Source of the DNA: a virus
Direction: 5' to 3' (one strand)
Length of the DNA stretch: 34,805 nucleotides
Virus record (IMG/VR): IMGVR_UViG_3300042879_004872
Span: 1 to 34,805 of that record
Below the pieces are notes generated by a model. That model searched no databases. It saw only the letters and a program-made list of their open reading frames with translations, and was not told the DNA's origin. Numbering within the stretch: position 1 is the stretch's first letter; every line of letters starts with the position of its first letter. Of this stretch, positions 1 to 28,055 are shown piece after piece. Position numbers and translations under genes: made by a program.

Positions 1-645
1 TATAGCTACACGACAAATGTTTTTGGTATTGGGTATGAACAAAAACATAATGATTCATTATTATTTGGCATTCAATTAAATGGTGCGGTTACAGATCTAA
101 GCGGTGATGCGTCTTCTGGAGAACTAAGAAAGTATTCTTTGGACTTCTTTGCATTGAAAGTTGAAGATGATTGGATTCTAAAGACTAACTTTGGTATGGC
201 CTACAACGAATTTGAAACATCACACTTCATGCGTGGTTTAAATCTATTGAACACAGCATCTACAAAAGGTCATGATACTTGGTTTGTAAATAGACTATAC
301 ACACCAGATATGTATGGATTTAGACCATTTGCTGGTCTAAAATTGGAATACGATTATAGAAAAAGTGTATTTGAAACTGGTCCAACTCTTACTGCGGTAA
401 GACATTCGGGTAGAAGTGACTTTGAAGTCACTGGTCATGGCGGTATTAGATTTGAACAGGATGTCGTTGAAGACTTGACTGGTGTAATTGAAGGTTTGAT
501 TGAGACAAATAAGACAAAGACAGCTTTTGCTGGATTTTCTTATGCCATTGATCAAAACTCTTCTATCATGCTAAAGTATGCAATACAAGAGAAAGAAAGC
601 GTGGTAAATAACATTATCGGAGCACAGATAAGGATAATGTTCTAA
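1..645 (+). CDS. Outer-membrane beta-barrel protein, 5' end missing
   Basis: The frame is open from the first base of the window, so this is the C-terminal 214 residues of a longer protein; the TTG at 139 is not a credible start. The sequence alternates hydrophobic and polar residues in short strands with aromatic girdle positions, and it ends in R-I-M-F, the terminal phenylalanine typical of outer-membrane barrels recognised by the BAM machinery. It resembles an autotransporter-type beta domain. The stop overlaps the start of the next gene (TAATG), so the two are probably co-translated. In a phage such a barrel could alter the infected cell's surface, but the missing N-terminus prevents naming a passenger or function. 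Barrel class is fairly likely; the exact family is unknown. Confidence 0.6.
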   Translation, partial: YSYTTNVFGIGYEQKHNDSLLFGIQLNGAVTDLSGDASSGELRKYSLDFFALKVEDDWILKTNFGMAYNEFETSHFMRGLNLLNTASTKGHDTWFVNRLYTPDMYGFRPFAGLKLEYDYRKSVFETGPTLTAVRHSGRSDFEVTGHGGIRFEQDVVEDLTGVIEGLIETNKTKTAFAGFSYAIDQNSSIMLKYAIQEKESVVNNIIGAQIRIMF

Positions 646-974
646 TGATTAAAATTATAGGATGTTTGCTAGCTCTGGGGCTTTTGTTTAGCCCCAGAGC
701 ATTTGCTGAAGATGATCAGTTTGTTTGGTTATCAAAACCAGTTCTATGTGGTGATACTGCAGATGTCTTGAAAAGCGTGGAAACTAGCGGATTCAAGCCC
801 ACAGCAAAATCTACAATTGTCAGAGATAGCGATGAACGAATTGTAGGAAATTTATATTTTATGACTAAAGATGACGACTTTTTGATAATCGAGATCTTTC
901 ACAAAAAGAGTTGTATAATCAGCATTTCAAAACATTTCATTATGTTCAAACAGAAAAACGAAAATGAACTATAA
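645..974 (+). CDS. Small exported (periplasmic) protein of unknown function
   Basis: The 109-residue product starts with a clear Sec signal peptide: a short basic start (M-I-K), a hydrophobic core (LLALGLLF) and an A-F-A cleavage site near residue 21. The mature part is about 88 residues, mixed alpha/beta, with two cysteines (in VLCGD and KSCII) that could form a disulfide. I do not recognise the family. The ATG overlaps the stop of the upstream barrel gene by one base, suggesting translational coupling and a shared envelope role. A perfect 10-bp inverted repeat lies inside the signal-peptide codons (672-700). The end overlaps a further tiny reading frame. Confidence 0.7.
   Translation: MIKIIGCLLALGLLFSPRAFAEDDQFVWLSKPVLCGDTADVLKSVETSGFKPTAKSTIVRDSDERIVGNLYFMTKDDDFLIIEIFHKKSCIISISKHFIMFKQKNENEL
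672..700 (+). other. Perfect 10-bp inverted repeat (hairpin) inside a coding region
   Basis: GCTCTGGGGC (672-681) and its exact complement GCCCCAGAGC (691-700) are separated by 9 T-rich bases. It starts 27 bases after the ATG of the small exported protein. The stem is strongly GC-rich in an AT-rich neighbourhood. It could limit read-through from the upstream barrel gene, tune translation or protect mRNA. It is not followed by a clear T-run, so a standard intrinsic terminator is not well supported. Confidence 0.55.
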
Positions 975-1068
975 GACATCAGATCTTATAGTGGTGTTAT
1001 GGGCAGGATTCATGATCGGATTAGTATCCGGGATTGGTCTCTGCCTAATTACATTTACTTTGAAGTAG
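964..1068 (+). CDS. 34-residue single-pass membrane peptide (putative)
   Basis: ATG at 964 overlaps the last codons of the preceding gene in another frame, and the frame runs to TAG at 1066-1068. The peptide begins MNYKTSDLIVV and is almost entirely one hydrophobic segment (VVLWAGFMIGLVSGIGLCLI) ending in a single lysine. It is too short for homology judgement, but overlap with the upstream gene, the clean membrane segment and the otherwise unexplained 80-base gap support it. Its end overlaps by 14 bases the convergent end of the adenylate cyclase gene. Similar tiny membrane peptides are common in phage lysis and envelope modules. Function unknown. Confidence 0.45.
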   Translation: MNYKTSDLIVVLWAGFMIGLVSGIGLCLITFTLK

Positions 1069-3133
1069 CACGATACACACCGTCCCAATCAGCGGGTGGT
1101 GGATTCTTGATGTAATCTTCGCAACGTTCAATCATCATTAAATAGTAATTCTTCATTCCACCGTTGAATGCAGTCATGAGTTTTTCACAAGATAACATTG
1201 CTCGCGTAAAGTTCTTTGAGCGATAATCGTCCAACATCATGTTGTGCATCTCACGAAATGGTGCATAGTTCAAGAATTCCATTTCTCTATTTGTACCAAT
1301 CACGGTATAGATGTTGACGCCTTGTTTCTTGCCCTTGACTGCAATTGTGTCAAGTTCGATGACAAAGTATTCATCCGCGACATACTCTGCTGTCTTTGAA
1401 CCAATGACTAGTTTGACTCCGTATGGTTTGCTTTGTCCTTCAAGACGACTAGCAAGGTTGACAGCATCACCGAGGCAAGTATAATCGAAACGCTGATCGC
1501 TTCCCATATTCCCAACAACAACCATACCAGTATTGATACCAAGACCCATGCCGAAAGGAGGAACGCCTTCAGCTGCAATGCTTCTGTTGAATTCATCTAG
1601 ATCTCCTAACATGCTTAGAGCTGTTTTGACTGCATTCTTGGCGTGCTGCTTATCATCAAGCGGAGCATTCCAAAATGCCATTTGTGCATCACCAATATAC
1701 TTATCAAGCGTTCCTTCATTCTCAAGAATCTTTGCTGTCATCGCTGTCATGTAGCGATTCATGATCTGAGTTAGTCCCTGAACATTGTCGCCATAGTGTT
1801 CACTAATCGATGTGAATCCACGAACGTCAGTAAACATGATTGACAATTCTCTACTGTCACCACCAAGCTTCAATAGCTCTGGATTCTTCTGTAGCTTTTC
1901 TACAAGTGCCTTTGAAAGATAGGACTGAAACTGCTTCTTGATTTGTTGCTTTAGTCTAAACTCTCTTGCAAAGTTATTGAAGACTAGCCATGCGAATACT
2001 AGAGTAATTGTAAATAAAGGAAATGAGTAATCAAATAGAATATTCATTTCGTACATATAGAAGCAAAATCCAACGATTCCTGCGGAAATTACGGCAAAGA
2101 AAGGAATTGTTTGCCAGATCTTCAATCTTGGAACAAGTGCCATGAACAATAGTCCAATCAAAGATAGAGTGATCAATTCTATTGCATCGGCATAATCGAA
2201 TCTTGTTAGACTGTCCCCATTGATTAGTGTCGATATCATTGCTGCTTGAACATCGGCAATGTTTTTTGTGCCGTATGGTGTCGGTACGTTTGTAGCAAGT
2301 CCTTGAGCCGAGATCGTTAGGATCACGACCTTGTTTTCAATATCATCCATATGATAGATTAGTCTACGATCAAATTCCTTGTCGTATTTGATCCAGACTC
2401 GTGCATTTGAATCCGTGTTTATGATTTCAAATTGAGGAATGCGAACTGATTCGACACCGTTTATTCCAACCTTCATTTGATAGCTAGTGTCGCCCGTCAA
2501 TGAACGAATGACTTCCAACGAAAGTGTTGGATACAATTCTTCATAGAATCCTTTCTTTGGATTCTTCTTGTCAATTCGAACAACCATAGGTATTCTTCTT
2601 ACGACACCATCCAATTCTCCAGACGCGGCAAGTACGCCAACGCCAACGGCCTTTTCTTCAAACATCTTTAGTGGTCGAACAATTCCATTGAATTTCTGTA
2701 GCCATTTTAGAGGACTCTCACCAACTACTGCAATTCCTCGCGAAGAACCTTCATCATTTGAAGCCTTGTTCGATGGTGCCTGTGATATGACAACACCTTC
2801 TAGTGCATTTGCGAGATCTTCATCTTTACCAAATCTATCTGGCTCCGAGAATATAATTGGCATGACAATCAATGCAGGTTTGAATGCCTTGATCGAATCG
2901 ATTATGAATGCAATTTTATCCCTGGGCCATGGCCATTGACCAAAATTCTCTATATCATCATCCGTAATTTCGACAATTGCAATTTGATCGCTTGGTGTTT
3001 GTCCCTTTTGCACCTGATAATAATCAAACGTCTTTAATCTTGCTATCTCGACAAGCCATCCATCTTGGATTCTTAATGCAATCAAACCAATTAAGACAAG
3101 AAGAACAATCTTCCAAGATGTAAAGAACTTCAT
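1055..3133 (-). CDS. CHASE2-domain transmembrane adenylate cyclase (class III)
   Basis: The 692-residue product has an N-terminal membrane anchor (about 8-20), an extracytoplasmic CHASE2 sensor domain (about 30-310), three predicted membrane helices (about 315-390) and a cytoplasmic class III cyclase domain (about 425-615). Visible catalytic residues are metal-binding Asp436 (FTDVRGF) and Asp482 (KYIGDAQMAFW), adenine-selecting Lys478 and Asp556, and transition-state Asn559 and Arg563 (GDAVNLASRLEG). All are present, so the enzyme should convert ATP to cAMP. CHASE2 cyclases beside FecR-domain proteins are a known bacterial pairing. This is the last gene of the minus-strand curli operon and overlaps the FecR gene by 4 bases. 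An intact cyclase on a phage is unusual. The ligand sensed is unknown. Confidence 0.9.
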   Translation of the reverse strand: MKFFTSWKIVLLVLIGLIALRIQDGWLVEIARLKTFDYYQVQKGQTPSDQIAIVEITDDDIENFGQWPWPRDKIAFIIDSIKAFKPALIVMPIIFSEPDRFGKDEDLANALEGVVISQAPSNKASNDEGSSRGIAVVGESPLKWLQKFNGIVRPLKMFEEKAVGVGVLAASGELDGVVRRIPMVVRIDKKNPKKGFYEELYPTLSLEVIRSLTGDTSYQMKVGINGVESVRIPQFEIINTDSNARVWIKYDKEFDRRLIYHMDDIENKVVILTISAQGLATNVPTPYGTKNIADVQAAMISTLINGDSLTRFDYADAIELITLSLIGLLFMALVPRLKIWQTIPFFAVISAGIVGFCFYMYEMNILFDYSFPLFTITLVFAWLVFNNFAREFRLKQQIKKQFQSYLSKALVEKLQKNPELLKLGGDSRELSIMFTDVRGFTSISEHYGDNVQGLTQIMNRYMTAMTAKILENEGTLDKYIGDAQMAFWNAPLDDKQHAKNAVKTALSMLGDLDEFNRSIAAEGVPPFGMGLGINTGMVVVGNMGSDQRFDYTCLGDAVNLASRLEGQSKPYGVKLVIGSKTAEYVADEYFVIELDTIAVKGKKQGVNIYTVIGTNREMEFLNYAPFREMHNMMLDDYRSKNFTRAMLSCEKLMTAFNGGMKNYYLMMIERCEDYIKNPPPADWDGVYRATSK

Positions 3134-4158
3134 TTTTGTATTATCCTTATTTTATTCACATATGGGGATTCTATGTCATTTATGCCAAATGAAACTGTCG
3201 TATCGCCTTGAGTGATACTAATTGAGTAGTGCTTTTCTTTTTCTATGTTCATTTGAACTTCATTTTCGACATTACGAATAAGCTTGACTTTTGTTTGCGT
3301 GAATATAGTATATATTTGCGTAGATTGATTGAGTCCCGCAACCTTACCCACCGATGATGCATCATATTCATTGAGGACATTTTGTAGTAGATCTATGTCC
3401 AAAAGATTGACATCCAAATCATTGAATTTCAAATTATCCTTGTCGAGATCAGTTGTATCCAGTTCTCGGAATTCAAGAAGATCAATTCGCAACGGATCAT
3501 TCTTACTGTGTTCTTCGTCCTTGTTTTTTTCTGGTTTGGAAACTATCAATAGATTGTTTATTTGACTTTCAGTAAGATTCAATATTGTTGGTTGAGCAGG
3601 CTTTCCTTCACTTGATGCAACATAGGTAGATTGAAATGCCTTGTTTAGTATGACTTGACCCGCATCAGACTCCACCTTGATCTCTCCCACGCTTCCATCA
3701 CGATTTGGTAGAAGAATGACAAGACTTTGACCTATCTCGTCTACTGTCATGCTAAATGATGTTCCACGAACTCCTATCGTGGCTACAGGTGTTTGAATGT
3801 TTATGTTTTCATTGTTGTTTTTGGCAATCGCTCCAGATGCATATCGCACCGTACCAAGAGCAATTTTCATTGACATCTTGCCAGCACCACGATTTGGATC
3901 AAAGACATATTCATCGATGACCAACTTGCTATTTTCCGTGATTGCTACTTGTGTATCATCTTTGAACTTGATATTTGCTCTTGACCGAGCCGTGCGAATT
4001 GTGTCGAGGGATTCTACTTTGCTACCCAAAGAAACATCAACTGACGAGCCAGCTTTTTTATCTACTTGTGCTGGACCCGTCAGTTGAATAAATTCACCAA
4101 TCGGATTGGCTTTTGCTTCAGTCAGACTGAGTAATAGTAGCAGTAAGATTATTGCCAT
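3130..4158 (-). CDS. FecR-domain periplasmic protein
   Basis: The 342-residue product starts with a hydrophobic signal peptide (MAIILLLLLLSLTEAKA, cleavage near 17). Residues about 50-150 form a FecR domain with its recognisable core (IKFKDDTQVAI, then TPVATIGVRGTSF). After about residue 200 comes an acidic, Asp/Leu-rich segment and a final beta-rich region of unknown fold. FecR domains sit in the periplasm and pass signals to membrane partners; outside the iron-citrate system they often accompany CHASE2 cyclases. Here the gene lies directly before such a cyclase, sharing ATGA, so it is the probable periplasmic partner. Its start lies 41 bases inside the end of the curlin gene, which implies translational coupling. 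The domain call is firm; the partnership is inferred. Confidence 0.85.
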   Translation of the reverse strand: MAIILLLLLLSLTEAKANPIGEFIQLTGPAQVDKKAGSSVDVSLGSKVESLDTIRTARSRANIKFKDDTQVAITENSKLVIDEYVFDPNRGAGKMSMKIALGTVRYASGAIAKNNNENINIQTPVATIGVRGTSFSMTVDEIGQSLVILLPNRDGSVGEIKVESDAGQVILNKAFQSTYVASSEGKPAQPTILNLTESQINNLLIVSKPEKNKDEEHSKNDPLRIDLLEFRELDTTDLDKDNLKFNDLDVNLLDIDLLQNVLNEYDASSVGKVAGLNQSTQIYTIFTQTKVKLIRNVENEVQMNIEKEKHYSISITQGDTTVSFGINDIESPYVNKIRIIQK

Positions 4159-4786
4159 TTGTCGTTACGTTCATGACCTTATTGATGCTACCTGATTGAG
4201 AATATGTAAAGTTTCCACCATTTCCGGTATGCGTAATTGTAGCAATATGTGGAATTAGCGGCGTTCCTGTTTGCGTGAAGCTTGTAGTATTTGTGTCGCC
4301 CGTGATGTTCATTGTGAGAGAACCGCCAGTTGAATTCATTAGCAATGTAGTTTGATTGCTATCTCCTGTTACGGTTGCATCTATTATCACATTGCTTTTC
4401 TTTATTGTTATGTCTGTAGTATTATTGTCGCCAATATTGTAGAACTTGGCATTGACGGAAGCACACGCATCTGTATTTCCTGCGTTGCACTTGAACTCCA
4501 TGGTATTTGTACTACCCTCTTGTTTCAAGTCTACAGTATTGTTATTACCATTCAATTCAAAATTGAGTGTGTTTACTGCACCGTCTTGCATGATCGTTAT
4601 ATCGTTGTTGTCGCCATTGATTATTGCTGGCGTCGTTGATGAATTAACCTGATTCAATGCGCCATTTTGTTGCGTGATTGAAAGCGTCAATGCATCACCA
4701 AGTTGATCGATATAGATCTTGCTATCTGTTGCACTAGCGATGTTTGATAACAAAACCATGAACAATGCTGCCCATAGTTTCTTCAT
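4118..4786 (-). CDS. Curlin-repeat secreted fibre protein (CsgA/CsgB-like)
   Basis: The 222-residue product has a signal peptide (MKKLWAALFMVLLSNIASA, cut near 19-20) followed almost entirely by imperfect Asn/Gln/Gly/Thr-rich beta repeats of the kind G-[DN]-x-N-x-x-[TD]-x-x-Q-x-G-x-x-N. Repeats are visible around residues 30-45, 57-72, 78-94, 118-130, 140-175 and 187-220. This is the pattern of curlin amyloid subunits and related minor fibre proteins. Two cysteines (about 100 and 108) interrupt the pattern, which is unusual for a curlin. It sits between CsgG and the FecR protein, overlapping CsgG by 4 bases. The role is inferred to be secretion through CsgG and assembly into a surface fibre; amyloid formation is not proven. 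CsgA versus CsgB cannot be decided. Confidence 0.75.
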   Translation of the reverse strand: MKKLWAALFMVLLSNIASATDSKIYIDQLGDALTLSITQQNGALNQVNSSTTPAIINGDNNDITIMQDGAVNTLNFELNGNNNTVDLKQEGSTNTMEFKCNAGNTDACASVNAKFYNIGDNNTTDITIKKSNVIIDATVTGDSNQTTLLMNSTGGSLTMNITGDTNTTSFTQTGTPLIPHIATITHTGNGGNFTYSQSGSINKVMNVTTNGNNLTATITQSD

Positions 4787-5559
4787 TTATTTCCTTCCTT
4801 TCTTTTCCAAAGACCTTTTCTTTCGCCTTCTCTTATAGTCTCTATTATGCTTTGTTCTATCGCGGCCTTGACTGCGTAGTTTGTTGGTTCATTTACTGCA
4901 AGACCAGTTTCTATTTCAAATGCTCTTGTTCCCATGTCTACAAACTTTAGCGCATCGACTGATGTCTTTACGCTAAGAATTGTCTTCTGTATGGCTACCG
5001 ATGTTAAAACTTCACCAGTTTGTACCGATATCAATCTTAGAAATACTGTAATGATGTCCTGTCTATATTGTGTAGAAACACCAACGCCAAGATATCTTGC
5101 ACCAATTCCACCAGATGTTATGTTTGTATCATAGCTAATAATGCCGCCTTCAGCAATCAATCCTGCAAATAAAAGCGGACGAAGATCTTTTGCGCGTTCA
5201 CCTTCAAATGCTTCACGAGCCGTACGAATAAGTTGGCGTTCCTTGATTAGATTGTCGAGACCAACACGCTCAACGACGCGAAACCATTTTCCTTTACCAA
5301 CATCTTGAAATCCCTTGATCAACCAAGATTCAGCACCTTGTGTTACTGCCGTACTTAGATGAGCTACAGTTTCGCTTGGCTTTCTTTGACCTGTTCTGTC
5401 TAGAAATGAATATACAGCAACTATTAGCGGTTGACCATCTATTTCTTCAATCATATCAAACATGTTTTGTGCTTGAGATGGCATTGATTCTGGTTCAGTT
5501 ACTTGCAATGGAGTCGTGCATCCAGCAAGCATTAGTAACGCGAGAATGTATTTTTTCAT
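4783..5559 (-). CDS. csgG: CsgG, outer-membrane curli secretion channel lipoprotein
   Basis: The 258-residue product begins with a lipoprotein signal (MLAGC, lipidated Cys14). The body follows E. coli CsgG closely: VAVYSFLDRTGQRKPSE, STAVTQGA, ERVGLDNLIKERQLIR, then SGGIGARYLGVGVSTQYRQD, which includes the transmembrane hairpin region, and TGEVLTSVAIQKTILS. CsgG forms a nonameric outer-membrane pore that exports curlin subunits. Length is close to the family's usual 260-280 residues and no gap is visible, so it should be functional. It overlaps csgF by one base and the curlin gene by 4 bases. CsgG homologues have been reported in marine myophages. Alternative roles in a phage include altering envelope permeability or excluding competing phages. 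Confidence 0.95.
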   Translation of the reverse strand: MKKYILALLMLAGCTTPLQVTEPESMPSQAQNMFDMIEEIDGQPLIVAVYSFLDRTGQRKPSETVAHLSTAVTQGAESWLIKGFQDVGKGKWFRVVERVGLDNLIKERQLIRTAREAFEGERAKDLRPLLFAGLIAEGGIISYDTNITSGGIGARYLGVGVSTQYRQDIITVFLRLISVQTGEVLTSVAIQKTILSVKTSVDALKFVDMGTRAFEIETGLAVNEPTNYAVKAAIEQSIIETIREGERKGLWKRKEGNK

Positions 5560-6002
5560 CAGAACTTGAACTCGCCAATTGGAACTTCTACCGTCGTAGT
5601 ATTTCCATTTGATTGAACTATTGAAAGTGTTACTGCATCCGCTGTCTTGACAAAGGATATGGTATTTCCTTCGATAACGACGGAACCAGAATTGCTGGCA
5701 TTTTCACCAAACATTGTATCAACAAGTTGTTTGCTCAATTGAGCATAGATTCTACCTTCTACGTTGAGTATAAACTTCGATAGATTTGAATTGTCTATCT
5801 TTCGTTGCTCGGCTTGTCTTCTTGCTTCTTCTTCAGCTTTTATCTTTTCGCGACGTTGAAATTCCATTGTTTCTATAGTTAGAACGTGCGAAGAATATCC
5901 TACACCACTAAATGAAGGACTTTTGAAGTTGAATTGAAGATTATCGGCTAAAGCATTACCAGAAATCAACAAAAACATGACAAAGAAAGGTGCTTTTCTC
6001 AT
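5559..6002 (-). CDS. csgF: CsgF-like curli assembly factor
   Basis: The 147-residue product carries a signal peptide cut after ALA (residue 19). The mature N-terminus, DNLQFNFKSPSFSG, matches the CsgF start (F-x-F-x-x-P-x-F-x-G), the segment that inserts into the CsgG channel and forms a second constriction. Residues about 45-70 are a charged helical stretch (RREKIKAEEEARRQAEQR), a neck-like helix, followed by a C-terminal beta region ending in F-K-F. CsgF normally couples CsgG to the nucleator CsgB. It is first in the operon, 68 bases from the divergent phage gene at 6071. An AAAGGA lies 9 bases upstream of the ATG on the minus strand. Confidence 0.88.
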   Translation of the reverse strand: MRKAPFFVMFLLISGNALADNLQFNFKSPSFSGVGYSSHVLTIETMEFQRREKIKAEEEARRQAEQRKIDNSNLSKFILNVEGRIYAQLSKQLVDTMFGENASNSGSVVIEGNTISFVKTADAVTLSIVQSNGNTTTVEVPIGEFKF

Positions 6003-6028: not shown

Positions 6029-6036
6029 TATTTAGG
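6029..6036 (-). promoter_or_regulatory. Weak late-promoter-like element for the curli operon
   Basis: On the minus strand this reads CCTAAATA, matching six of eight positions of the T4 late element TATAAATA, about 27 bases before the csgF start. It immediately abuts the plus-strand element at 6036-6043, which would make the 68-base intergenic space a divergent late control region. This is weak evidence from sequence similarity only. No good sigma-70 -35/-10 pair was seen on this strand. Confidence 0.25.
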
Positions 6037-6043
6037 ATAAATA
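6036..6043 (+). promoter_or_regulatory. T4-type late promoter (GATAAATA)
   Basis: GATAAATA differs from the T4 late consensus TATAAATA only at the first base and lies 27 bases before the ATG at 6071. In T4 such elements are read by the phage sigma-like factor gp55. The same element, exact, precedes the genes at 10796, 23295 and 34443, so a shared late signal is likely. Confidence 0.55.
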
Positions 6044-6070: not shown

Positions 6071-8749
6071 ATGAAGAACTATAGATCTTTTATATTGGAA
6101 GCTAAAACTAAGAGTTCAAATACTGTTGTCATGGCTTTCGGGCGCATGAATCCTCCAACTACAGGTCACGCTAAACTGGTCGATAAAGTAAGAGAACTGG
6201 CACAACAGCATGATGCTCATCACGAAATCATACTCTCACATTCGCATGATTCTGAAAAGAATCCGCTAACACAAGCGCAAAAGATTAAACACGCAAAAAG
6301 ATATTTTCCTGGCGCAAATATTACAGGATCAAGTTCAGAACAACCAAATTTTCTAGAACATGCAAAAAGATTGCATCAGGCTGGTCATGATCATCTAGTT
6401 ATGGTTGCTGGTGATGATCGTGTGGGAGAATATCAAAAAATATTGAACAAATACAATGGTTCTCATGAGGGCGCACTATTTAATTTCAAGAAGATATCAG
6501 TAGTTTCCGCAGGTAGTAGAGATCCTGACGCTGAAGGTGTAGAGGGTATGTCGGCATCAAAGATGCGTGAACATGCAAAGAATAATAATTTTGATGGGTT
6601 TCGTCAAGGCGTTCCATCTCATGTATCAGATAAACATGCAAAAGAATTATTCAATGATGTAAGAAAAGGAATAGGAATAAAAGAAGAACAAGTAAATGAG
6701 GCTTGTTGGGACGGATACAAACAAGTCGGCATGAAAAAGAAAAATAGTAGAATGGTACCAAATTGTGTACCAGAAGAGAGTAGTGTTTTGAACAAACCAA
6801 CGATGAGTCCTGAAGAAATTGCAAAGAAACATAAGGTCGATGTAAGTGAAATTCAAAAACAACTAAAAGTTGGAATTGGTGTTGAAAAAGAACACACCAA
6901 AAATGAGGATACTGCAAGAGAAATTGCATTGGATCACTTGGGAGAGAATCCGAAGTACTATGCAAAGCTAAAGAAGTATGTTGAATCTGTTGTCAAGGTC
7001 GGCACAATGATTCAAGATGATTTTGGTGAAGTTGGTAAAGTTGTTTCATTGCGAGAAAATGCTGTCGTATTCAATGTATTGCAAACAGGCATGATGAAAT
7101 CAGTTGAATATGGTTACTTCGATATCGTTGAATCTATTGGTCACATTGCTACGGGTGCACCAGATTATTTCTTTGGTGGTGTAGCAGATGCTCCAAAGGA
7201 CAAGCAGGAAGAAGCAGGTCATTCCGATCCTTCTCCTCAGGATAAAGACATTCGCGGAAAGAAGCATTCGACGCCAAGCAAGTACTATCGCGGTCTATCT
7301 TCCGACACTAAAAAAAGACGCTACTCTGACTTTAGACAAAAGGCTCAAAAAAGTTGGAAAGATCCTTCAGCCTATACTGATGCACCCGGTGACAAGGAAG
7401 CTAGAGAAAAAGATATGCCTCAGTCCAAGCATACCAAGAAATATCACGCACTATATGATGAAAGAATAAATAATTCACAAATGAGGGATGATATGAACGA
7501 AGAAGCATCAAAAGGTTTAGCAGCAAAAGCCAAGAAGTCGGGTATTTCGTTATCGACTTTGAGAAAAGTTTATAATCGTGGAATGGCCGCATGGAGAAGT
7601 GGTCATAGACCAGGAACAACTCCTCAGCAATGGGCTATGGCTCGCGTCAATTCATACATTACAAAAGGTAAAGGCACATATTATGGCGCCGATGCCGATC
7701 TAAGAAAAGAAAACATATCGACCGACTATGTTGGTACGGGAATGAATGTTCCGTATTATGGAAGCTATGACAAGGTTGCAGTACATAATGAGGGTAAAGA
7801 CATTGACAAGATGTTTGAAGAATTCTTGGAAGAAAATGTACACGCACTTGATACAAATATGGAATCACATTTATTTGGAACAAATGCTGCAAGAAAAGCA
7901 GCAGAACAGATGACACCAGGTGAACCGGGATATGTGGGACAAAATAAAAAATTACCTGACTCAGCCTATCATTCTAGAGAAGGCGAAGAAACCAATCAAA
8001 AAGAAAAGAAGACTAAAAAGAGCCAAGAAGAAGACTACGCGGGTGCGGATTATAACTCCAGACTCTCCGGATCGCCAAGAGCCGTAGGTGGATTGGGTGG
8101 TGCATATAGTATTGGTATTCAAGAAAACATGCTTCCAAATGTACCATCAATTCGTGCATGGGCATTGAAAGAGGCAACGCAAAGAAATTTTATTCAAAGA
8201 TACGGTGATGATGCAGGTGAAAAATTGCTTGAAGCAGCATATCGCATGACAACTGCAAAGTCATCGTTCATTAGTTTTAGACAAAAGCTTGATGAAGCTG
8301 ATTATGCACCACAAGCATTTTCCATGGGTTCTGGTTCATCGCCTGTGTTGAGTCCACCAGAGACAGGTTATGCAAAGCAAGCATTTGGTGAAAGCAAGAA
8401 AAAGCCAAAGATGGAAAAGGTAAATGAGGATGAAGTTACATTTCATTGCGAAGAAGACGAGCTAATCGAAACTCTGCAGTGGGATGAAGAAACACATCCG
8501 ATAGAAGAAGCAGAATATCAAGGCAAGAAAGTTCCTCTTGGCAAACCAATGAAAGGTGATGTCAAGAAGTCGAAAGTTTATGTCAAGGGACCAAGTGGTC
8601 GTGTAGTCAAGGTAAACTTTGGCGACAAGAACATGACAATCAAGAAAAACATTCCAGCTCGTAGAAAATCATTTAGAGCAAGACATCATTGCGATACGAA
8701 TCCTGGACCTAGATGGAAGGCACGCTACTGGTCGTGCAGGGCATGGTAA
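6071..8749 (+). CDS. Modular nucleotidyltransferase polyprotein with capsid-targeting-like leader
   Basis: The 892-residue product starts MKNYRSFILEA, close to the T4 capsid-targeting sequence MKTYQEFIAEA, which T4 prohead protease cuts after the Glu. Residues 18-200 are a cytidylyltransferase-type nucleotidyltransferase: FGRMNPPTTGH contains the (T/H)xGH nucleotide-binding motif, with GDDRVGEY and a C-terminal SASKMREHA like the family's SxxxxR. Then follow small modules I recognise from many marine phage proteins: CWDGYKQVGMKKK...PNC (212-232), a helical EEIAKKH...LDHLGENPKYY module (248-297, DUF5661-like), an SH3-like strand region (307-355), a GHRPGTTPQQWAMARVNS module (480-545, DUF5824-like) and a C-terminal basic SFRARHHCDTNPGP...ARYWSC module (835-892). 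Candidate cleavage sites [ILV]-x-E|A occur at 10, 210, 721, 742 and 813. The substrate is unknown; NMN adenylyltransferase-like activity is possible. Confidence 0.75.
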   Translation: MKNYRSFILEAKTKSSNTVVMAFGRMNPPTTGHAKLVDKVRELAQQHDAHHEIILSHSHDSEKNPLTQAQKIKHAKRYFPGANITGSSSEQPNFLEHAKRLHQAGHDHLVMVAGDDRVGEYQKILNKYNGSHEGALFNFKKISVVSAGSRDPDAEGVEGMSASKMREHAKNNNFDGFRQGVPSHVSDKHAKELFNDVRKGIGIKEEQVNEACWDGYKQVGMKKKNSRMVPNCVPEESSVLNKPTMSPEEIAKKHKVDVSEIQKQLKVGIGVEKEHTKNEDTAREIALDHLGENPKYYAKLKKYVESVVKVGTMIQDDFGEVGKVVSLRENAVVFNVLQTGMMKSVEYGYFDIVESIGHIATGAPDYFFGGVADAPKDKQEEAGHSDPSPQDKDIRGKKHSTPSKYYRGLSSDTKKRRYSDFRQKAQKSWKDPSAYTDAPGDKEAREKDMPQSKHTKKYHALYDERINNSQMRDDMNEEASKGLAAKAKKSGISLSTLRKVYNRGMAAWRSGHRPGTTPQQWAMARVNSYITKGKGTYYGADADLRKENISTDYVGTGMNVPYYGSYDKVAVHNEGKDIDKMFEEFLEENVHALDTNMESHLFGTNAARKAAEQMTPGEPGYVGQNKKLPDSAYHSREGEETNQKEKKTKKSQEEDYAGADYNSRLSGSPRAVGGLGGAYSIGIQENMLPNVPSIRAWALKEATQRNFIQRYGDDAGEKLLEAAYRMTTAKSSFISFRQKLDEADYAPQAFSMGSGSSPVLSPPETGYAKQAFGESKKKPKMEKVNEDEVTFHCEEDELIETLQWDEETHPIEEAEYQGKKVPLGKPMKGDVKKSKVYVKGPSGRVVKVNFGDKNMTIKKNIPARRKSFRARHHCDTNPGPRWKARYWSCRAW

Positions 8750-14254: not shown

Positions 14255-15282
14255 TGAACACACAAGAAAATTCTCTACACGTTTTTGACATAGATGATAC
14301 TCTATTCCACACGAATGCACAAGTAAAAGTGGTAGATCATGAAGGCAAAGTTGTTGATAGACTATCAAACTCTCAGTTCAATGATCATCAACTTCAGCCT
14401 GGTCATTCATACGACTTCTCTGAATTTAGATCGGCCGATAAATTTCGCGATGAATCAAAACCAATTCCAAAAATGTTGAATAAGCTAAAAGCTATTCATT
14501 CAAACATAAAAAAGAATCCGGGATCTGAATCTCGCGTCATCATGAATACTGCGCGGGCAGACTTTGACGACAAGAATAAATTCCTAAGTACATTTCGCAA
14601 GCAAAATGTAGATATTGATGACATACACGTTCATCGTGCAGGAAATATTGAAGGTGATGAACTGCCAGCAGTAAAGAAAGTAAAGATAATAAAGAAACAT
14701 CTAGAATCTGGCAAATACAAACACGTTCATATGTACGATGATAGCACGACAAATCTACAACACTTTCTTGCCATGAAGAAAGATCATCCAGATGTTGAAT
14801 TTCATGCACATCATGTGCTATCAGATGGCACAACACGAAAGTTTATTTCCAATCCTAAACTAGAAGAAGACGCTCCAGCAAATGCCGCAGGTGGTGGTGC
14901 CATTGCAGGCATTGGAGTTGGTCCACAAGGTGAACCTGGTGTACAACCAGGAACACAACAAAATATTCTTGCAAGAATGCTTCGTCGCAAGGCATTAAAA
15001 GAACCCAAGCAAGAAGAAAAGATACAAAAAGTCAACGAAGCAACGTTTGCGGGACAAGAAGTATTCGTTGTTCCAACACAGTATTATCACAATTGTCGAG
15101 AAGGAAAGAATCGATATCATAGCTATGAAAGATATGTGGGTAATGATGAAATAGGCGAAACAATCAGAAAGTATGGTAGAGACAGAAAGAATCGCAAGAA
15201 GCCAATCATCGTTCAAGATGAAAGAACTGGTGCGATGATGTATCTACGATACGGCGGAAAATATAGAAAGGATCGCACATGA
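14254..15282 (+). CDS. HAD-superfamily phosphatase fused to phage-specific C-terminal modules
   Basis: In this 342-residue product, residues 9-20 (HVFDIDDTLFHT) give the HAD DxDxT nucleophile motif. MNTAR (97-101) fits motif II (Ser/Thr), Lys141/Lys147 lie in the motif III region, and MYDDS (160-164) supplies the acidic motif IV. Residues 1-200 are therefore a phosphatase-like HAD domain. After LEE|D (205) comes a Gly-rich linker (GGGAIAGIGVGPQGEPGV) that I recognise from other phage modular proteins, then ILARMLRRK, a VNE|A site at 262 and a basic C-terminal module (FVVPTQYYHNCREGKNRYHS). The HAD call is firm. The substrate is unknown; polynucleotide or nucleotide 5'-phosphate is typical for phage HADs. 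The end overlaps the endolysin start. Confidence 0.75.
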   Translation: MNTQENSLHVFDIDDTLFHTNAQVKVVDHEGKVVDRLSNSQFNDHQLQPGHSYDFSEFRSADKFRDESKPIPKMLNKLKAIHSNIKKNPGSESRVIMNTARADFDDKNKFLSTFRKQNVDIDDIHVHRAGNIEGDELPAVKKVKIIKKHLESGKYKHVHMYDDSTTNLQHFLAMKKDHPDVEFHAHHVLSDGTTRKFISNPKLEEDAPANAAGGGAIAGIGVGPQGEPGVQPGTQQNILARMLRRKALKEPKQEEKIQKVNEATFAGQEVFVVPTQYYHNCREGKNRYHSYERYVGNDEIGETIRKYGRDRKNRKKPIIVQDERTGAMMYLRYGGKYRKDRT

Positions 15283-15887
15283 TTACACCTGAAATTCTCA
15301 AGCAATGCCTACCAGAAGCAACAATGCAGGCTTGCGAGACATTTGCCGAGCCATTGGCCGAAGCATGTGAAAAATTTGAAATCAATACACCACAAAGACT
15401 TGCTGCATTCATTGCACAAGTTGGTCACGAAAGTGGAAACCTACGCTTCGTAAAAGAAAACTTGAATTATTCTGCTCAAGGTCTTCGTAAGATATTTCCA
15501 AAATATTTTCCAAATGATCAACTTGCAATGCAGTATCAGCGTAATCCAGAAGCAATCGCAAATCGCGTATATGCAAATCGCATGGGTAATGGACCAGAAG
15601 ATTCCGGCGACGGATGGAGATATCGCGGTCGTGGTCTAATTCAATTGACAGGTCATGACAATTATCACAAGTGCATGGCTGATCTAGAAGTAGATGATCC
15701 AGAATACTTTGAAACTCCAGAAGGTGCAGTCTATTCAGCTTGCTGGTTCTGGAACACACGCAATCTAAATGCAGTAGCTGACACTGGCGATATCAAGAAA
15801 ATGACCAAGTTGATCAATGGTGGATTCATTGGTCTTGAAGATCGCATCAAGCATTATCAACACGCACTTCACGTCCTTGGTGAATGA
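15279..15887 (+). CDS. GH19-family endolysin (chitinase/lysozyme fold)
   Basis: The 202-residue product is a single glycoside hydrolase family 19 domain. Glu51 in FIAQVGHESGN is the expected catalytic acid, followed by LNYSAQGLRKIFPKYF, and the substrate-cleft signature GWRYRGRGLIQLTGHDNY lies at 112-129. GH19 phage enzymes cut the peptidoglycan glycan chain. No signal peptide is present, so a holin is needed for release, and a holin candidate is encoded 0.9 kb downstream. The ATG overlaps the HAD gene's stop by 4 bases and the stop overlaps the next gene by 4 bases, forming a tightly packed lysis cassette. Confidence 0.92.
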   Translation: MITPEILKQCLPEATMQACETFAEPLAEACEKFEINTPQRLAAFIAQVGHESGNLRFVKENLNYSAQGLRKIFPKYFPNDQLAMQYQRNPEAIANRVYANRMGNGPEDSGDGWRYRGRGLIQLTGHDNYHKCMADLEVDDPEYFETPEGAVYSACWFWNTRNLNAVADTGDIKKMTKLINGGFIGLEDRIKHYQHALHVLGE

Positions 15888-16354
15888 TGTTGGGGTTCTT
15901 TGCTTCAAAGGCAATGCTCGTAGTAGTAATCGCTTCTGTAGGTAGTGGCGGTTACTTCTATGTGCAAAGTCTTCGTCATCAACTTCAAGCAGCTGTAGAA
16001 GCGCAGCAGAAACTTGAAGATGCAATTGCTGCAAAAGAACTTGTCATGAACAAGATGAAAGAAGATATCGAAAACATAAGAAAGATAAATTCTGAATTGA
16101 ATACAAAGTTTGCAACTGCTCAACGTGATGTTCATGACTTGGAAAAAAAGTTTAGAGATTCGGAAGGTCGTCTAAAGGATTTTTCAAGAGCAGCAGTACA
16201 AAATCCAAAAGCATTGCAAGACAAGATCAATCGTGGTACAAAGTTTGCATTACGATGCAATGAAATTTCTTCTGGCGCACCATTGAAGCCAGAAGATGAT
16301 GCGAATAACATTTGTCAAGAACTGATAAAGAGCAAGAAAGCGGAAAAGAAATGA
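15884..16354 (+). CDS. Inner-membrane spanin-like protein (Rz-type)
   Basis: The 156-residue product has one N-terminal membrane segment (about residues 8-27, KAMLVVVIASVGSGGYFYV) followed by a long periplasmic coiled coil (about 30-100, rich in Gln, Glu, Lys) and a C-terminal part with two cysteines (LRCNEIS and ICQEL). This is the layout of i-spanins, which span the periplasm and fuse membranes in the final lysis step. It lies directly after the endolysin and overlaps the following lipoprotein gene, the usual i-spanin/o-spanin order. Sequence similarity to lambda Rz is not obvious, so the call rests on architecture and context. Confidence 0.7.
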   Translation: MMLGFFASKAMLVVVIASVGSGGYFYVQSLRHQLQAAVEAQQKLEDAIAAKELVMNKMKEDIENIRKINSELNTKFATAQRDVHDLEKKFRDSEGRLKDFSRAAVQNPKALQDKINRGTKFALRCNEISSGAPLKPEDDANNICQELIKSKKAEKK

Positions 16355-16752
16355 ATCGCCTGTTACTATGTGCTACGTTATTGCTTGCGGGATGTGGTGG
16401 CGTAGCCCCAAAGATTGTTGAAAAACCGATACTGGTTGATAGACCTGAGTTGATTGTTCCAGAAGTACAACCAGTACAACAATATGACTTTGAGTGGATT
16501 GTGATTACAAGAGAAAACTTCGATAGTGTTGCACGAGATTTGGAAAGTCGTGGACAAACAATCGTTCTATTTGCAATCACACCACAAGGATATCAAAATC
16601 TAAGTTTGAGCATCGCAGAACTTAGAAGATTCATAACACAACAACAGTCTGTGATCGTGTCATACAAGACATATTATGGTAAAAAGACTGAAGAACCAAA
16701 AGTAGAAGAAAAGAAAGAAGAAGAAAAGAAACCATTTTGGAAAATATTCTGA
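16351..16752 (+). CDS. Outer-membrane lipoprotein, probable o-spanin partner
   Basis: The chosen start at 16351 overlaps the i-spanin stop (ATGA) and gives a clean lipoprotein signal, MNRLLLCATLLLAGCGG, with lipidation at Cys15; a longer frame from 16312 would bury it. The 133-residue product has a Pro/Val-rich stretch (VEKPILVDRPELIVPEVQP), a small folded domain (WIVITRENFDSVARDLESRG, FAITPQGYQNLSL) and a highly charged tail (KVEEKKEEEKK). Lipoprotein plus position after an i-spanin suggests an o-spanin. The folded domain, which recurs in other aquatic T4-like phages, is larger than classical Rz1, so another role is possible. Confidence 0.65.
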   Translation: MNRLLLCATLLLAGCGGVAPKIVEKPILVDRPELIVPEVQPVQQYDFEWIVITRENFDSVARDLESRGQTIVLFAITPQGYQNLSLSIAELRRFITQQQSVIVSYKTYYGKKTEEPKVEEKKEEEKKPFWKIF

Positions 16753-16761
16753 GGTATTACC

Positions 16762-17265
16762 ATGGCAGTCAACGCAGAAACAGAAGTAAAAACACCTGAC
16801 GGAAAACCAGCTGAAGACTGGATGAGCAAAAGATGGCGACCAATGATGGGTTGGTTATACATGGGAACATGTACAGTTGACTTCATTGTTTTTCCTATTG
16901 TTTGGTCCGTTCTACAAGCAGCAACAGGTCAAAACGTAACACAATGGAATCCAATCACTCTACAGGGTGCTGGACTATATCATCTTGCAATGGGTGCAAT
17001 ATGCGGTGTCGCCGCATGGTCACGCGGACAAGAAAAGATGGCAGGCTCTGGTATGAGTGGTGGAATGGGTATGGGAATGGGCAGTGGTATGGGTAGTGGT
17101 ATGGGTATGGGTAGTGGTATGGGTATGGGTATGAATAGATCAATGCCACTAAATAGTACTACACCGACGCCTTCATCATATTCAAGATCTACTGCGTCTA
17201 CCTCAAAGTCGGTGCTTCCTGATACTGATATGGAAGACGCAGACAATATGATAAGAAGACGATAA
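16762..17265 (+). CDS. Holin, GTA_holin_3TM-like, with Gly-Met-rich insertion
   Basis: In this 167-residue product, residues about 22-92 contain WMSKRWRPMMGWLYMG, then hydrophobic helices (TVDFIVFPIVWSVL and LYHLAMGAICGVAAW), matching the three-helix holin family first described for gene-transfer-agent release. A striking Gly/Met/Ser run follows (about 95-125), then a polar Ser/Thr-rich tail. A good GAGGT ribosome-binding site precedes the ATG. It sits behind the endolysin and spanin genes, completing the lysis cassette. Holins make inner-membrane holes that release the endolysin. The Gly-Met run is low complexity and probably variable in length. Confidence 0.75.
   Translation: MAVNAETEVKTPDGKPAEDWMSKRWRPMMGWLYMGTCTVDFIVFPIVWSVLQAATGQNVTQWNPITLQGAGLYHLAMGAICGVAAWSRGQEKMAGSGMSGGMGMGMGSGMGSGMGMGSGMGMGMNRSMPLNSTTPTPSSYSRSTASTSKSVLPDTDMEDADNMIRRR
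17050..17136 (+). repeat. Short Gly-Met codon repeat in holin gene
   Basis: The sequence ggtatgggtagtggtatggg and variants recur, coding GMGMGSGMGSGMGMGSGMGM. The period is 6-12 bases and stays in frame. It probably arose by replication slippage and could vary between close relatives. Confidence 0.8.
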
Positions 17266-21874: not shown

Positions 21875-22186
21875 ATGGACGACTCATCAATTCAATATAG
21901 AATTCGTTTGGCACAGATCAATGGCATCAAGCTGGATGAAGCAAAAGAAAAAGATTGGGAACAACCTAAACAGGATGATTCATATCATAACATGGAACGT
22001 GCATCTGCTATACAGTTATACCATGATGAAATGAGAAACAATACTAGAAACGGCTTACCAAGCCGTACAGCACATATAGAAGCCATGGATGCTGTAGAGA
22101 ATGAGCATGGTAAATCCGGATTAGATCATCTGCATGGTCATTTTTCGGAGCTAGAATTGAATCGTAATTCTGAAGAAAACAAATAA
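21875..22186 (+). CDS. Leader-bearing small phage protein, paralogue 1
   Basis: The 103-residue product starts with a 23-residue leader (MDDSSIQYRIRLAQ...IKLDEA) that is identical, base for base, to the leader of the next gene. The leader ends in L-D-E|A, matching the hydrophobic-x-E|A pattern cut by T4-type prohead proteases. The body has a helical domain with a motif shared with its neighbours (Y-H-D-E-M, N-x-x-R, AHIEAMDAV, then HGKSGLDHLHGH). Function unknown. The family is local, tandem and behind a late-like element, so a packaged head protein is a reasonable guess. Confidence 0.65.
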   Translation: MDDSSIQYRIRLAQINGIKLDEAKEKDWEQPKQDDSYHNMERASAIQLYHDEMRNNTRNGLPSRTAHIEAMDAVENEHGKSGLDHLHGHFSELELNRNSEENK

Positions 22187-22269
22187 TTTTGGAGAGAACC
22201 ATGGACGACTCATCAATTCAATATAGAATTCGTTTGGCACAGATCAATGGCATCAAGCTGGATGAAGCA
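21875..22269 (+). repeat. Exact 69-base direct repeat (21875-21943 and 22201-22269)
   Basis: The first 23 codons of paralogues 1 and 2 are identical at every base, while the following coding sequence has diverged strongly. The third paralogue carries a related but diverged copy from 22567. The boundary falls exactly at the putative L-D-E|A processing site. This pattern points to recent gene conversion or leader swapping. Confidence 0.9.
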
Positions 22270-22536
22270 TCTATGTCGCCAGCTGAGCGTCGCGCAGCGA
22301 CTGCTAAACGGTTGGCCGACGTTGCACACACATATCATAGTTCAATGATAACTAGTCTTCAAAATGGTCATACATCATCTGACGCACATTTAAAGGCTAT
22401 CGATGCCGTTACCGAAAAACACGGCCAGCGAGGATTAAATCATCTTCATAAGCATGTATCTCAACTTGGACCCGTTCACAGCGCACATCAATTCGATCAG
22501 CTAGAAAAAGCAGGTCTCCTCAAGCCCAGACGATGA
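22201..22536 (+). CDS. Leader-bearing small phage protein, paralogue 2
   Basis: The start at 22201 is chosen because it reproduces exactly the leader of paralogue 1 and has GGAGAG just upstream; an in-frame ATG at 22189 would add four residues and is less likely. The 111-residue product has the same leader ending L-D-E-A, then an Ala/Arg-rich helix (MSPAERRAATAKRLADVA) and the shared domain (YHSSM, AHLKAIDAV, HGQRGLNHLHKH). The C-terminus is longer than in its neighbours (FDQLEKAGLLKPRR). Function unknown. Confidence 0.65.
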   Translation: MDDSSIQYRIRLAQINGIKLDEASMSPAERRAATAKRLADVAHTYHSSMITSLQNGHTSSDAHLKAIDAVTEKHGQRGLNHLHKHVSQLGPVHSAHQFDQLEKAGLLKPRR

Positions 22537-22566
22537 TCAATATGCTTTAATTCTAAAGAGAGAATC

Positions 22567-22818
22567 ATGGACGACACATTAAATCAATTCAGACGCCGTT
22601 TGGCACAGATCAATGGTATCAATCTAAATGAAAATAGTGATTTGTTTAAAAAATCTGTACTGAGAACATATTACGACACGATGAAAAAGAATGCACGTAA
22701 TCGAGACATGGCGCATGAATTAAGTATAGCAGCAGTTCAAGAAAAACATGGTTCTCGCGGACTTGAGCATATTGAAAAACATCTAGACGCACAACATCAT
22801 TATGAACTAAACAACTGA
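22567..22818 (+). CDS. Leader-bearing small phage protein, paralogue 3
   Basis: The 83-residue product opens MDDTLNQFRRRLAQINGINL, a diverged version of the leader of paralogues 1 and 2, ending L-N-E-N in place of L-D-E-A. The body keeps the shared pattern (YYDTMKKNARN, AHELSIAAV, HGSRGLEHIEKH) but is shorter. The sequence upstream of its ATG (AAAGAGAGAATC) resembles that of paralogue 1 (AGAGAGAGAATC), showing that the ribosome-binding region was duplicated with the gene. Function unknown. Confidence 0.65.
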   Translation: MDDTLNQFRRRLAQINGINLNENSDLFKKSVLRTYYDTMKKNARNRDMAHELSIAAVQEKHGSRGLEHIEKHLDAQHHYELNN

Positions 22819-23251: not shown

Positions 23252-23294
23252 AATATACAATCGATTATATTATGGTTATATTATGGAGAAAAAA

Positions 23295-26773: not shown

Positions 26774-28055
26774 TCCTTATTATTACTATTATAGTTTTCA
26801 AGATTTTATTTTTTCAACAAAATTAAATTTATTTATTTCTAAAAAAGAAAAATTTACTCAAGGCCAGTTTCATTTACCAAATATAGAAAAAAAATTTGAT
26901 GAAATAAATATCACAGAAGAACCAAAAGACGATTTACAAAATCTCTATAAGCAGAGAGCTGTTGAAATTAGAAATAATTATGATTACGTAACTCTTTTTT
27001 ATAGCGGAGGCCCCGATAGTCATTGTATATTAGAAAGTTTTCTTTTAAATAATATTTTTATAGATGAAATTGTTATTTTTGATATTTATAATACAAATGA
27101 AAAATACAATATATCATCTAAAAATCATGAAATGTTTTTATATTTAGATGCAGAAGGAAGAGGTGATGACATAGAAAAATCTGCTTTACCTTTAGCAAAA
27201 TATTTTGTAGAAACATACTCTCCTCACACAAAAATAACTTATTTTCCAAAAATTCAAGAAACTCATTTAGATTTTTGGACAAAAATAAACAAAAATAATT
27301 TTGCAAAAGAATTAAAAACAAATGTATCGGAATTATTGTTAAACAGACCAATTTTTCGAATACAAAATACAAATGTTTTTAATTCTCAATGGAAAAGTAT
27401 TAAAAAAAATAAAAAAGTGGTTCATCTTTGGGGTCGAGAAAAGCCGGCAATAAATTATGATGATATAGGATTTTATTTTTTTTTCAATGATCAACTTTTT
27501 TCAAGTACTTTTGATAATTATTTTAATTTAACAATAGATCAACTTCCAAATCATCATGAATATTTTTTTATATATCCTAGTACCATAGCAATTAATTTGT
27601 TTTTAAAACAATGTCATATTTTAATTAATAAATTACCCAAATATTTTTTTGAAAAATTAGAATATAAAAATAATAAAAATAATAAAAAAATACTTGATAC
27701 GCGAGCTTATCAGGATAAAATATCCGATTTAATTTATGATTTTAAAATTAAAATACCATACAAAGGTTTAAAACCAGAAGATCTATTTTTAGACCATATT
27801 AAAAATCCAAACAAATATCCAAATTTAAATAAAATGATAAATTTTATGGGAAGAGATGGAATAAAGTGGCCTACTCTTAATACATTTTTCATGAATAATA
27901 ACAATTTAGATGCTTATACAAATTATAAAATGTTTAGATCGTTTGTTTATGATGAGTTTTTTATAAATGATTTTGATGATTGCGAAATTATGATGCAACA
28001 ATTTACAAATCAGATCACAACGAAAAAATTTTACATAAAATATTTCAATGCTTGA
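26763..28055 (+). CDS. PP-loop ATP-pyrophosphatase-type enzyme, copy 2
   Basis: The 430-residue product has the same plan as the gene at 24865: an aromatic-rich start (YYYYYSFQDFIFSTKLNLF), then KQRAVEIRNNYDYVTLFYSGGPDSHC with SGGxDS at about residues 80-85. The rest is Lys/Asn/Ile-rich with diverged regions of the same overall order (WGREKPAINYDDIGFYFFFN parallels the GLDKPSLKIFDNKIYLIFAD of copy 1). The two copies are anciently diverged, suggesting two different adenylation steps or substrates. It overlaps the oxygenase upstream by 11 bases and the TctA-like gene downstream by 8. The substrate is unknown. Confidence 0.72.
   Translation: MKNNPYYYYYSFQDFIFSTKLNLFISKKEKFTQGQFHLPNIEKKFDEINITEEPKDDLQNLYKQRAVEIRNNYDYVTLFYSGGPDSHCILESFLLNNIFIDEIVIFDIYNTNEKYNISSKNHEMFLYLDAEGRGDDIEKSALPLAKYFVETYSPHTKITYFPKIQETHLDFWTKINKNNFAKELKTNVSELLLNRPIFRIQNTNVFNSQWKSIKKNKKVVHLWGREKPAINYDDIGFYFFFNDQLFSSTFDNYFNLTIDQLPNHHEYFFIYPSTIAINLFLKQCHILINKLPKYFFEKLEYKNNKNNKKILDTRAYQDKISDLIYDFKIKIPYKGLKPEDLFLDHIKNPNKYPNLNKMINFMGRDGIKWPTLNTFFMNNNNLDAYTNYKMFRSFVYDEFFINDFDDCEIMMQQFTNQITTKKFYIKYFNA

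Follow-up and report, generated by a model that had tools for sequence, protein, structure and literature searches.

A five-gene phage curli operon with a FecR-domain protein and a CHASE2 cyclase: a candidate late-expressed fiber cassette

Why would a virus carry a bacterial secretion pore, a fiber protein and a sensor enzyme in one operon? The question is raised by a curli (type VIII secretion) locus in the IMG/VR virus record IMGVR_UViG_3300042879_004872; the window analyzed here is this single record at its full length of 34,805 bases. Open reading frames (ORFs) and profile scans with Pfam place five minus-strand genes between positions 6002 and 1055, in the order CsgF, CsgG, curlin-repeat protein, FecR-domain protein and CHASE2-cyclase, overlapping end to end by 1, 4, 41 and 4 bases in the direction from csgF to the cyclase gene. 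We read the locus, with a probability of roughly 0.55, as a late-expressed phage curli fiber cassette with a built-in envelope sensor. Its genes (lengths in amino acids, aa) and the two promoter-like elements at its head are as follows.

5559..6002, minus strand: CsgF (curli pore plug/anchor), the first gene of the operon, 147 aa; PF10614, 6.7e-16; signal peptide by eye
4783..5559, minus strand: CsgG outer-membrane secretion pore, 258 aa; PF03783, 2.6e-48; lipobox LAGC by eye
4118..4786, minus strand: curlin-repeat protein, predicted beta-solenoid, 222 aa; PF07012, 7.1e-5
3130..4158, minus strand: FecR-domain protein, 342 aa; PF04773, 1.7e-12
1055..3133, minus strand: CHASE2 sensor and class III nucleotide cyclase, 692 aa; CHASE2, 1.8e-36, and Guanylate_cyc, 1.4e-19
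6029..6036, minus strand: T4-type late element CCTAAATA, its TAAATA core beginning 32 bases ahead of csgF
6036..6043, plus strand: divergent late-type element GATAAATA, its core 33 bases ahead of the gene at 6071

An initial annotation of this DNA had described the overlapping five-gene operon with its signature and catalytic residues, and had regarded the union of pore, fiber and second-messenger enzyme in one phage operon as new. The layout is confirmed by the ORFs and by Pfam matches for all five families, the cyclase residues D436, K478, D482, T552, N559 and R563 are all there, and the sequence supports a phage operon that unites secretion pore, fiber protein and cyclase. The claim of novelty is overtaken by earlier publications. 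A csgF, a csgG, a curli-associated gene and two hypothetical genes were reported in pelagimyophages, with 'sibling capture' proposed (PMC7029224); csgF and csgG of phage Melnitz were described with a proposed role in lysis (PMC9004378); and podovirus pelagiphages carry, in order, CsgF, CsgG, CsgA/B, FecR, often a second CsgA/B, and adenylate cyclase, the same curli-cyclase gene set occurring in myovirus pelagiphages (PMC9599517). Phages HTVC008M and Melnitz carry the operon too. The window operon is thus real, conserved and already described as a kind, and the contig is a further member. Two circumstantial indications from sequence are new here, a late-type core at the operon head and kin operons in two metagenome-assembled genomes (MAGs) of Caulobacteraceae; the main text of PMC9599517 contains neither the word 'promoter' nor 'Caulobacter'. 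Also new is the scarcity of class III cyclases and cyclic nucleotide monophosphate (cNMP)-binding domains in 197 genomes of the SAR11 family.

Among the closest known systems, the type VIII secretion module of pelagiphages (PMC9599517) has the same genes in the same order, whereas the window has one curlin gene, no operon gene ahead of csgF, and cytidylyltransferase-like and autotransporter genes beside the operon. HTVC008M and Melnitz share the gene order, with identities to the window proteins of 50 and 52% for CsgG, 39 and 42% for the cyclase and 42 and 42% for FecR, respectively. In both phages, unlike in the window, an extra gene separates FecR from the cyclase and csgF follows a small membrane-protein pair; the Melnitz cyclase has Ser at the transition-state Asn. 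The csgBAC/csgDEFG locus of E. coli has CsgG, CsgF and curlin in common with the window, but shows no FecR or cyclase gene within 8 kilobases (kb) and has csgE, csgD and csgC.

To describe conservation, IMG/VR was scanned for relatives of CsgG (397 found) and of the cyclase (363 found), and 80 loci were retained from each scan by rank; some contigs occur in both sets, and near-copies are included. All five genes, in the order CsgF, CsgG, curlin, FecR, (curlin), cyclase, are present in 48 of the 80 CsgG loci, and another 28 are cut at a contig end (26 at the 3' end, 2 at the 5' end), so that a profile check across phages, as suggested in the initial annotation, finds the order conserved. The cyclase loci give a similar picture: 47/80 have all five genes in order, 29/80 are cut at the 5' end, three have the cyclase inverted at 0.1–2.2 kb from csgF, and one has the cyclase alone. 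Median gaps are zero or negative for csgF-csgG, csgG-curlin and curlin-FecR, meaning that these neighbors overlap or abut. A phage collection contained CsgG matches in seven records (one a record of 1.5 kb) and cyclase matches in eight, six of which cover at least 80% of the cyclase.

Could the arrangement be an artifact of a chimeric contig, as the initial annotation had allowed? At the downstream junction this is excluded, because contig L004, a 99.4% match to window positions 1–5665, continues with more genes, among them a member of phage family phrog_455, and because L088 (92.2%), which also crosses the junction, reaches a DnaB-like phage helicase; L085 (99.4%) spans it as well. The upstream junction, between csgF and the gene at 6071, has no second covering contig: an exact 29-base probe found 0 other contigs, and L004 starts inside csgF. 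The 68-base gap at this junction holds the back-to-back late-type elements.

The late promoter of T4 is TATAAAT (PMC9004378). We counted TAAATA cores within 60 bases upstream of genes in loci of less than 85% CsgG identity, with dinucleotide shuffles as control. A core precedes csgF in 35 of 56 loci, the window among them (shuffle mean 5.6, maximum 11; antisense 4), and the cyclase in 21 of 53 (shuffle mean 4.2, maximum 11). For the other operon genes the counts are 1/57 (csgG), 7/57 (curlin) and 5/54 (FecR). HTVC008M encodes a late sigma factor, and in this phage the core lies ahead of 13/30 structural versus 2/20 replication genes, its csgF having TATAAATA. For Melnitz, PMC9004378 lists 15 late promoters, none of them connected with the curli genes in the 12 of 21 places covered. 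The small membrane-protein pair is the immediate upstream neighbor of csgF in 23 of 52 loci and was not found in the other 29; loci without the pair have the core before csgF in 26/29 cases, and those with it have the core before the pair in 13/23 and before csgF in 6/23. Across the 52 loci the pair is either whole or wholly unfound. In the near-twin L004 a pair of this kind (86 + 94 aa; GFPI motif by eye; L004:6891-7438, just past window position 1) precedes a 633 aa autotransporter-type surface protein instead of csgF. Other regulatory candidates in the window were near chance, with 22 sigma-70-like promoters against 16.8 in shuffles (standard deviation 3.9) and 4 terminators against 3.1; one perfect 12/12 sigma-70 match falls within the cyclase gene but on the strand opposite to it. 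The window gave no Rfam match at gathering score and no tRNA.

Of the secretion proteins, the window CsgG matches CsgG structures at 6.4e-47. Window residues S, H and L stand at E. coli Y51, N55 and F56, which we take to be the constriction sites; bacterial CsgG is also variable there (at the F56 site, for example, Y 38, F 23 and L 11), so the idea of a lost constriction was not used. The curlin-repeat protein is the weakest call of the five, as its PF07012 score of 23.1 bits against a cut-off of 20.7 is marginal on sequence alone; Curlin_rpt is matched by 25 of 34 aligned viral homologues. Its AlphaFold2 model is confident (predicted local distance difference test, pLDDT, 89.7; predicted template modeling score, pTM, 0.83). 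Foldseek returned no match for this model at E 0.001 or better, and CsgA came first only in a second look with VIA-align, in which 300 chains were re-aligned. The top match there was Pontibacter korlensis CsgA (8c50; Z 19.2, root-mean-square deviation (rmsd) 8.5 over 189 residues). Because unrelated solenoid proteins follow closely, from Z 17.6 downward, the modeled structure supports the beta-solenoid fold more than membership of the curlin family.

What would the FecR-domain protein do in such an operon? FecR anti-sigma regulators have a cytoplasmic N-terminal anti-sigma domain ahead of the FecR domain. In the model of the window protein an N-terminal export-type helix is followed by the FecR domain, a disordered linker (204–266) and a C-terminal beta region (275–341), and only about 20 residues lie ahead of the folded FecR region. 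The domain resembles the periplasmic signaling domain of PupR (Z 15.7, rmsd 3.1 over 137 in structure comparison). PF04773 is found in 29/29 viral FecR rows, and an anti-sigma domain is absent from the 12 families listed for these rows; nor is there a Pfam match to a partner sigma factor or TonB-dependent receptor among the 27 window proteins scanned. Given the lack of an anti-sigma domain and a layout of helix plus FecR domain, a role as iron-responsive anti-sigma factor appears unlikely; PMC9599517 labels FecR an iron-dependent regulator, whereas no anti-sigma part was found in FecR of the window type. A role as periplasmic partner of CHASE2 would fit better, by analogy with the Burkholderia biofilm operon BiofilmReg, in which a FecR gene adjoins that of a CHASE2 sensor kinase, a known bacterial pairing (PMC5192318). 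As in the window, an exported FecR-domain protein lies there beside a CHASE2 sensor enzyme; unlike in the window, the enzyme is a histidine kinase, the FecR protein contains LysM, and the word 'curli' does not occur in the paper (PMC5192318). A reading of 36 short loci showed FecR relatives next to other alphaproteobacterial CHASE2-type cyclases in four (L246, L247, L249, L276); the Caulobacteraceae operon itself accounts for two more, and the short flanks (about 1.5 kb) conceal others. A built-in curlin repeat at the FecR C-terminus was considered and is not claimed: profile comparison gave 9.5% probability over 43 columns, and the 12 families listed for the 29 rows do not include Curlin_rpt.

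Class III cyclases use two metal-binding Asp residues, a Lys and a Thr/Asp that characterize the adenylate type, and a transition-state Asn and Arg. The window enzyme, whose CHASE2 domain (PF05226, 1.8e-36) covers residues 15–329, has D436, D482, K478, T552, N559 and R563 aligned with CyaB 3r5g. A comparison of 104 unique cyclases of more than 550 aa, drawn from the viral loci and from genome-contig relatives, shows no replacement of either metal Asp, of the Lys or of the Arg (one Lys unread as X). Judged by these residues, production of cyclic AMP (cAMP) by the window cyclase is chemically plausible. The columns of T552 and N559 hold Asp + Ser in 32/104 cyclases (the Melnitz type) and Ser + Asn in 14. 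Free-standing ORFs of 95–133 aa lie upstream of csgF in nine CsgG loci (L023, L033, L039, L043, L050, L070, L072, L076, L082); these were rejected as second cyclases, as they match the cyclase C-terminal tail only.

Does the operon also exist in bacteria? A CsgG scan of a genome collection (84,980 species) gave 491 relatives, of which 80 were kept; nine of these loci have a FecR relative. By eye, six of the nine were taken for phage contigs: L167, L184 and L204 have phage-like neighbors, in L166 and L169 the operon adjoins a membrane protein of the phage-pair type, and L168 holds little beyond the operon. In L184 (binned as Maricaulis), CsgF, CsgG, curlin and FecR lead into phage structural genes, of which one matches phrog_3287 at 5e-77; this contig is seemingly a further phage type with a curli module. 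The gammaproteobacterial MAG contig L193 has FecR and no cyclase nearby. The remaining two, the Caulobacteraceae MAG contigs L170 and L171, contain CsgF, CsgG, two curlins, FecR and the CHASE2 cyclase on one strand, overlapping or closely spaced, and differ from the window in being set among bacterial genes (metallophosphatase, TetR, amidohydrolase, acyl-CoA dehydrogenase and DsbA in L170; glycosyltransferases, S9 peptidase and a TonB receptor plug in L171). Across 249 genomes of their family only these two have a cyclase of this grade (1114–1116 bits, next 387; 7/249 pass 1e-90), and across 385 genomes of the class only one of the two does (next 585 bits; 137/385 pass 1e-90); both are rows of the query alignment, which inflates their scores.

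In the cyclase tree L170 and L171 nest with phage L101 within a phage clade (100/100), and a phage-only cyclase clade is rejected by the approximately unbiased (AU) test (p 0.0002). This test used 33 rows, including every third alphaproteobacterial row (10), with L279, L204 and L169 dropped beforehand as long or odd and L167 counted as phage, and the tested group was named after a first tree had been viewed. In the CsgG tree the pair groups with L105 and L133. Phage markers are DNA polymerase and UvsX for L101 and terminase and portal for L133; L105 was checked for a ribonucleotide reductase gene only. L170 and L171 align in a single block, 87.4% identical over 5,990 columns, that opens near the csgF start and runs through to the cyclase gene's end, with the flanks unaligned. 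Since pieces of the L170 flanks lie on other contigs of the other genome (79% over 979 bases, 89% over 459 bases), the operon sits at different places in the two genomes; as the flank, at 89%, is no lower than the operon, at 87%, this shows relocation and not recent transfer. The operon is lower in G+C than its flanks in both MAGs (0.516 versus 0.548 and 0.553; 0.527 versus 0.626 and 0.543). An origin in bacteria with passage to phages was rejected as the whole story, with the Caulobacteraceae pair inside the phages (AU p 0.0002). Passage from phage to bacterium appears the more economical direction, not a proven one, and donor bacteria outside the sample could reverse it.

The cyclase raises the further question of what cAMP would act on. 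In 197 genomes, the family of a Pelagibacter MAG (incomplete genomes may be included, and single absences carry little weight), the cNMP-binding domain PF00027 occurs in 11, three of these in frames of Crp size (125–254 aa). The class III cyclase domain PF00211 occurs in three, two above cut-off, of which G634 fits the place of the phage-type L204. Because the binding domain is in only 11/197, the usual Crp route seems unlikely in hosts of the SAR11-family type. The proposal of the initial annotation that the phage raises cAMP is thus plausible as to its chemistry and doubtful as to that route. This reasoning bears on HTVC008M, a phage of Pelagibacter. A broader and more tentative reading is of a mobile, one-unit, phage-shaped curli cassette, switched on late and passed to freshwater Caulobacteraceae, in which cAMP would act by an undescribed route, as host cells mostly have no class III cyclase or known cNMP receptor. 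On this tentative view cAMP might bind a receptor of unknown kind, leave the cell, or gate the secretion system locally.

The preferred reading, a late tethering fiber, is the best fit to the parts, the timing signal and the conservation. It rests on what the sequence provides, namely the parts, their order, the catalytic residues, the late-type elements, the conservation and the unlike insertion places in bacteria; from these we infer export, fiber formation, FecR-CHASE2 contact, cAMP production, late transcription and a benefit of tethering. In such a cassette, phage late-sigma machinery would transcribe the operon late in infection, and CsgG with CsgF would form an outer-membrane pore. The curlin-repeat protein would exit through the pore and fold into a beta-solenoid, amyloid-like fiber anchored on the dying cell. 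In the periplasm, the exported FecR-domain protein would inform the cyclase, through its CHASE2 domain, of the condition of pore, fiber or envelope, and the cyclase would make cAMP inside the cell. The fiber would most likely tether infected cell, debris and released virions to one another or to fresh hosts.

Several observations weigh against this reading. The authors of the Melnitz study saw no clumping of infected cells (PMC9004378), which counts against a tethering of cells. The late-type elements are consensus matches and not transcripts; several cores lie just 9–11 bases ahead of the script-chosen ATG, too close for a normal leader, a sigma-70-like hexamer pair (9/12) overlaps the element ahead of csgF, and the plain TATAAATA count in the window, 5 versus 3.4 expected, is reached by 27 of 100 shuffles. 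No CsgE is found among the five operon genes, the contig being a fragment and no search having been aimed at CsgE. Four of the 80 CsgG loci (L044, L067, L073, L074) have no cyclase despite 2.0–5.5 kb more DNA, and the transition-state Asn is replaced by Ser in 32/104 cyclases, where activity may be altered. Finally, 186 of the 197 SAR11-family genomes have no PF00027 receptor, other kinds of cAMP receptor not having been searched, and PF00027 is found in 0 of 18 curli phage records (HTVC008M and Melnitz included; the other 16 are IMG/VR records, perhaps fragments).

Beyond the operon, the window contains a lysis cassette and, convergent with the operon, part of a surface-protein gene:

15279..17265, plus strand: lysis cassette of endolysin, two Rz-like spanin genes and holin; the second spanin has a lipobox by eye and is thus Rz1-like
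1..645, plus strand: C-terminal autotransporter beta-barrel of a surface protein (PF03797, 3.2e-10; 633 aa in L004)

The endolysin matches phrog_181 at 6.7e-84, the Rz-like spanins match at 1.5e-8 and 7.4e-12, and the holin at 1e-5. The gene at 6071-8749 combines a cytidylyltransferase-like domain, DUF5661 and DUF5824 in a single protein of 892 aa. A family 5 solute-binding protein (SBP_bac_5) is encoded at 23283-24872 and a TctA-family transporter at 28048-29349, followed at 29363-30244 by a protein with a signal-like N-terminus and no Pfam match. Three tandem short ORFs at 21875-22818 have similar N-termini, apparently a small paralogous family.

What else might the operon do? The initial annotation had suggested superinfection exclusion, which was also proposed in PMC9599517: fiber or pore would mask or alter the surface and block adsorption of competing phages. 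Surface placement fits this. Exclusion genes are usually early, however, and the late-type elements at the operon head weaken the idea, leaving it unlikely, if still the most probable of the rivals. Those elements would fit a role in lysis timing, the proposal made for Melnitz from gene neighborhood and AlphaFold models, in which CsgGF serves as a pinholin or gated pore (PMC9004378). Yet an endolysin, two Rz-like spanin genes and a holin are encoded elsewhere in the window; these would make a lysis role for the curli genes unneeded, and they weaken the idea of controlled envelope weakening in the initial annotation. The lipobox of CsgG (by eye) places it in the outer membrane, where holins do not act, and lysis timing would leave the conserved curlin, FecR and cyclase unused; we consider it quite improbable.

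Two further explanations each center on one part of the operon. If the cyclase were the point, the phage would alter the cell through cAMP or the use of ATP, with the curli genes as sensor. The conserved catalytic residues, the cyclase's own late-type core in 21/53 loci (shuffle mean 4.2) and its persistence near csgF in the 3/80 loci where it is inverted (0.1–2.2 kb away) speak for this, but the replaced Asn in 32/104 cyclases and the absence of a PF00027 receptor from 186/197 SAR11-family genomes and 18 phage records make it very improbable. Least probable of all is an ungated CsgG pore that imports nutrients or cofactors into the infected cell, as suggested in PMC7029224 and PMC9599517: no CsgE gate is reported and the phage has other transport-type genes (SBP_bac_5 and TctA), yet an uptake pore needs no curlin, FecR or cyclase, and these stay linked in order.

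Phage curli genes have been in print since 2020. The late-type elements indicate to experimenters when in infection to look, and the separate lysis cassette weakens one of the printed models. The sparse cAMP toolkit of the SAR11 family sharpens the question of phage-made cAMP: if its level rose in infected SAR11 cells, a new target would have to be sought.

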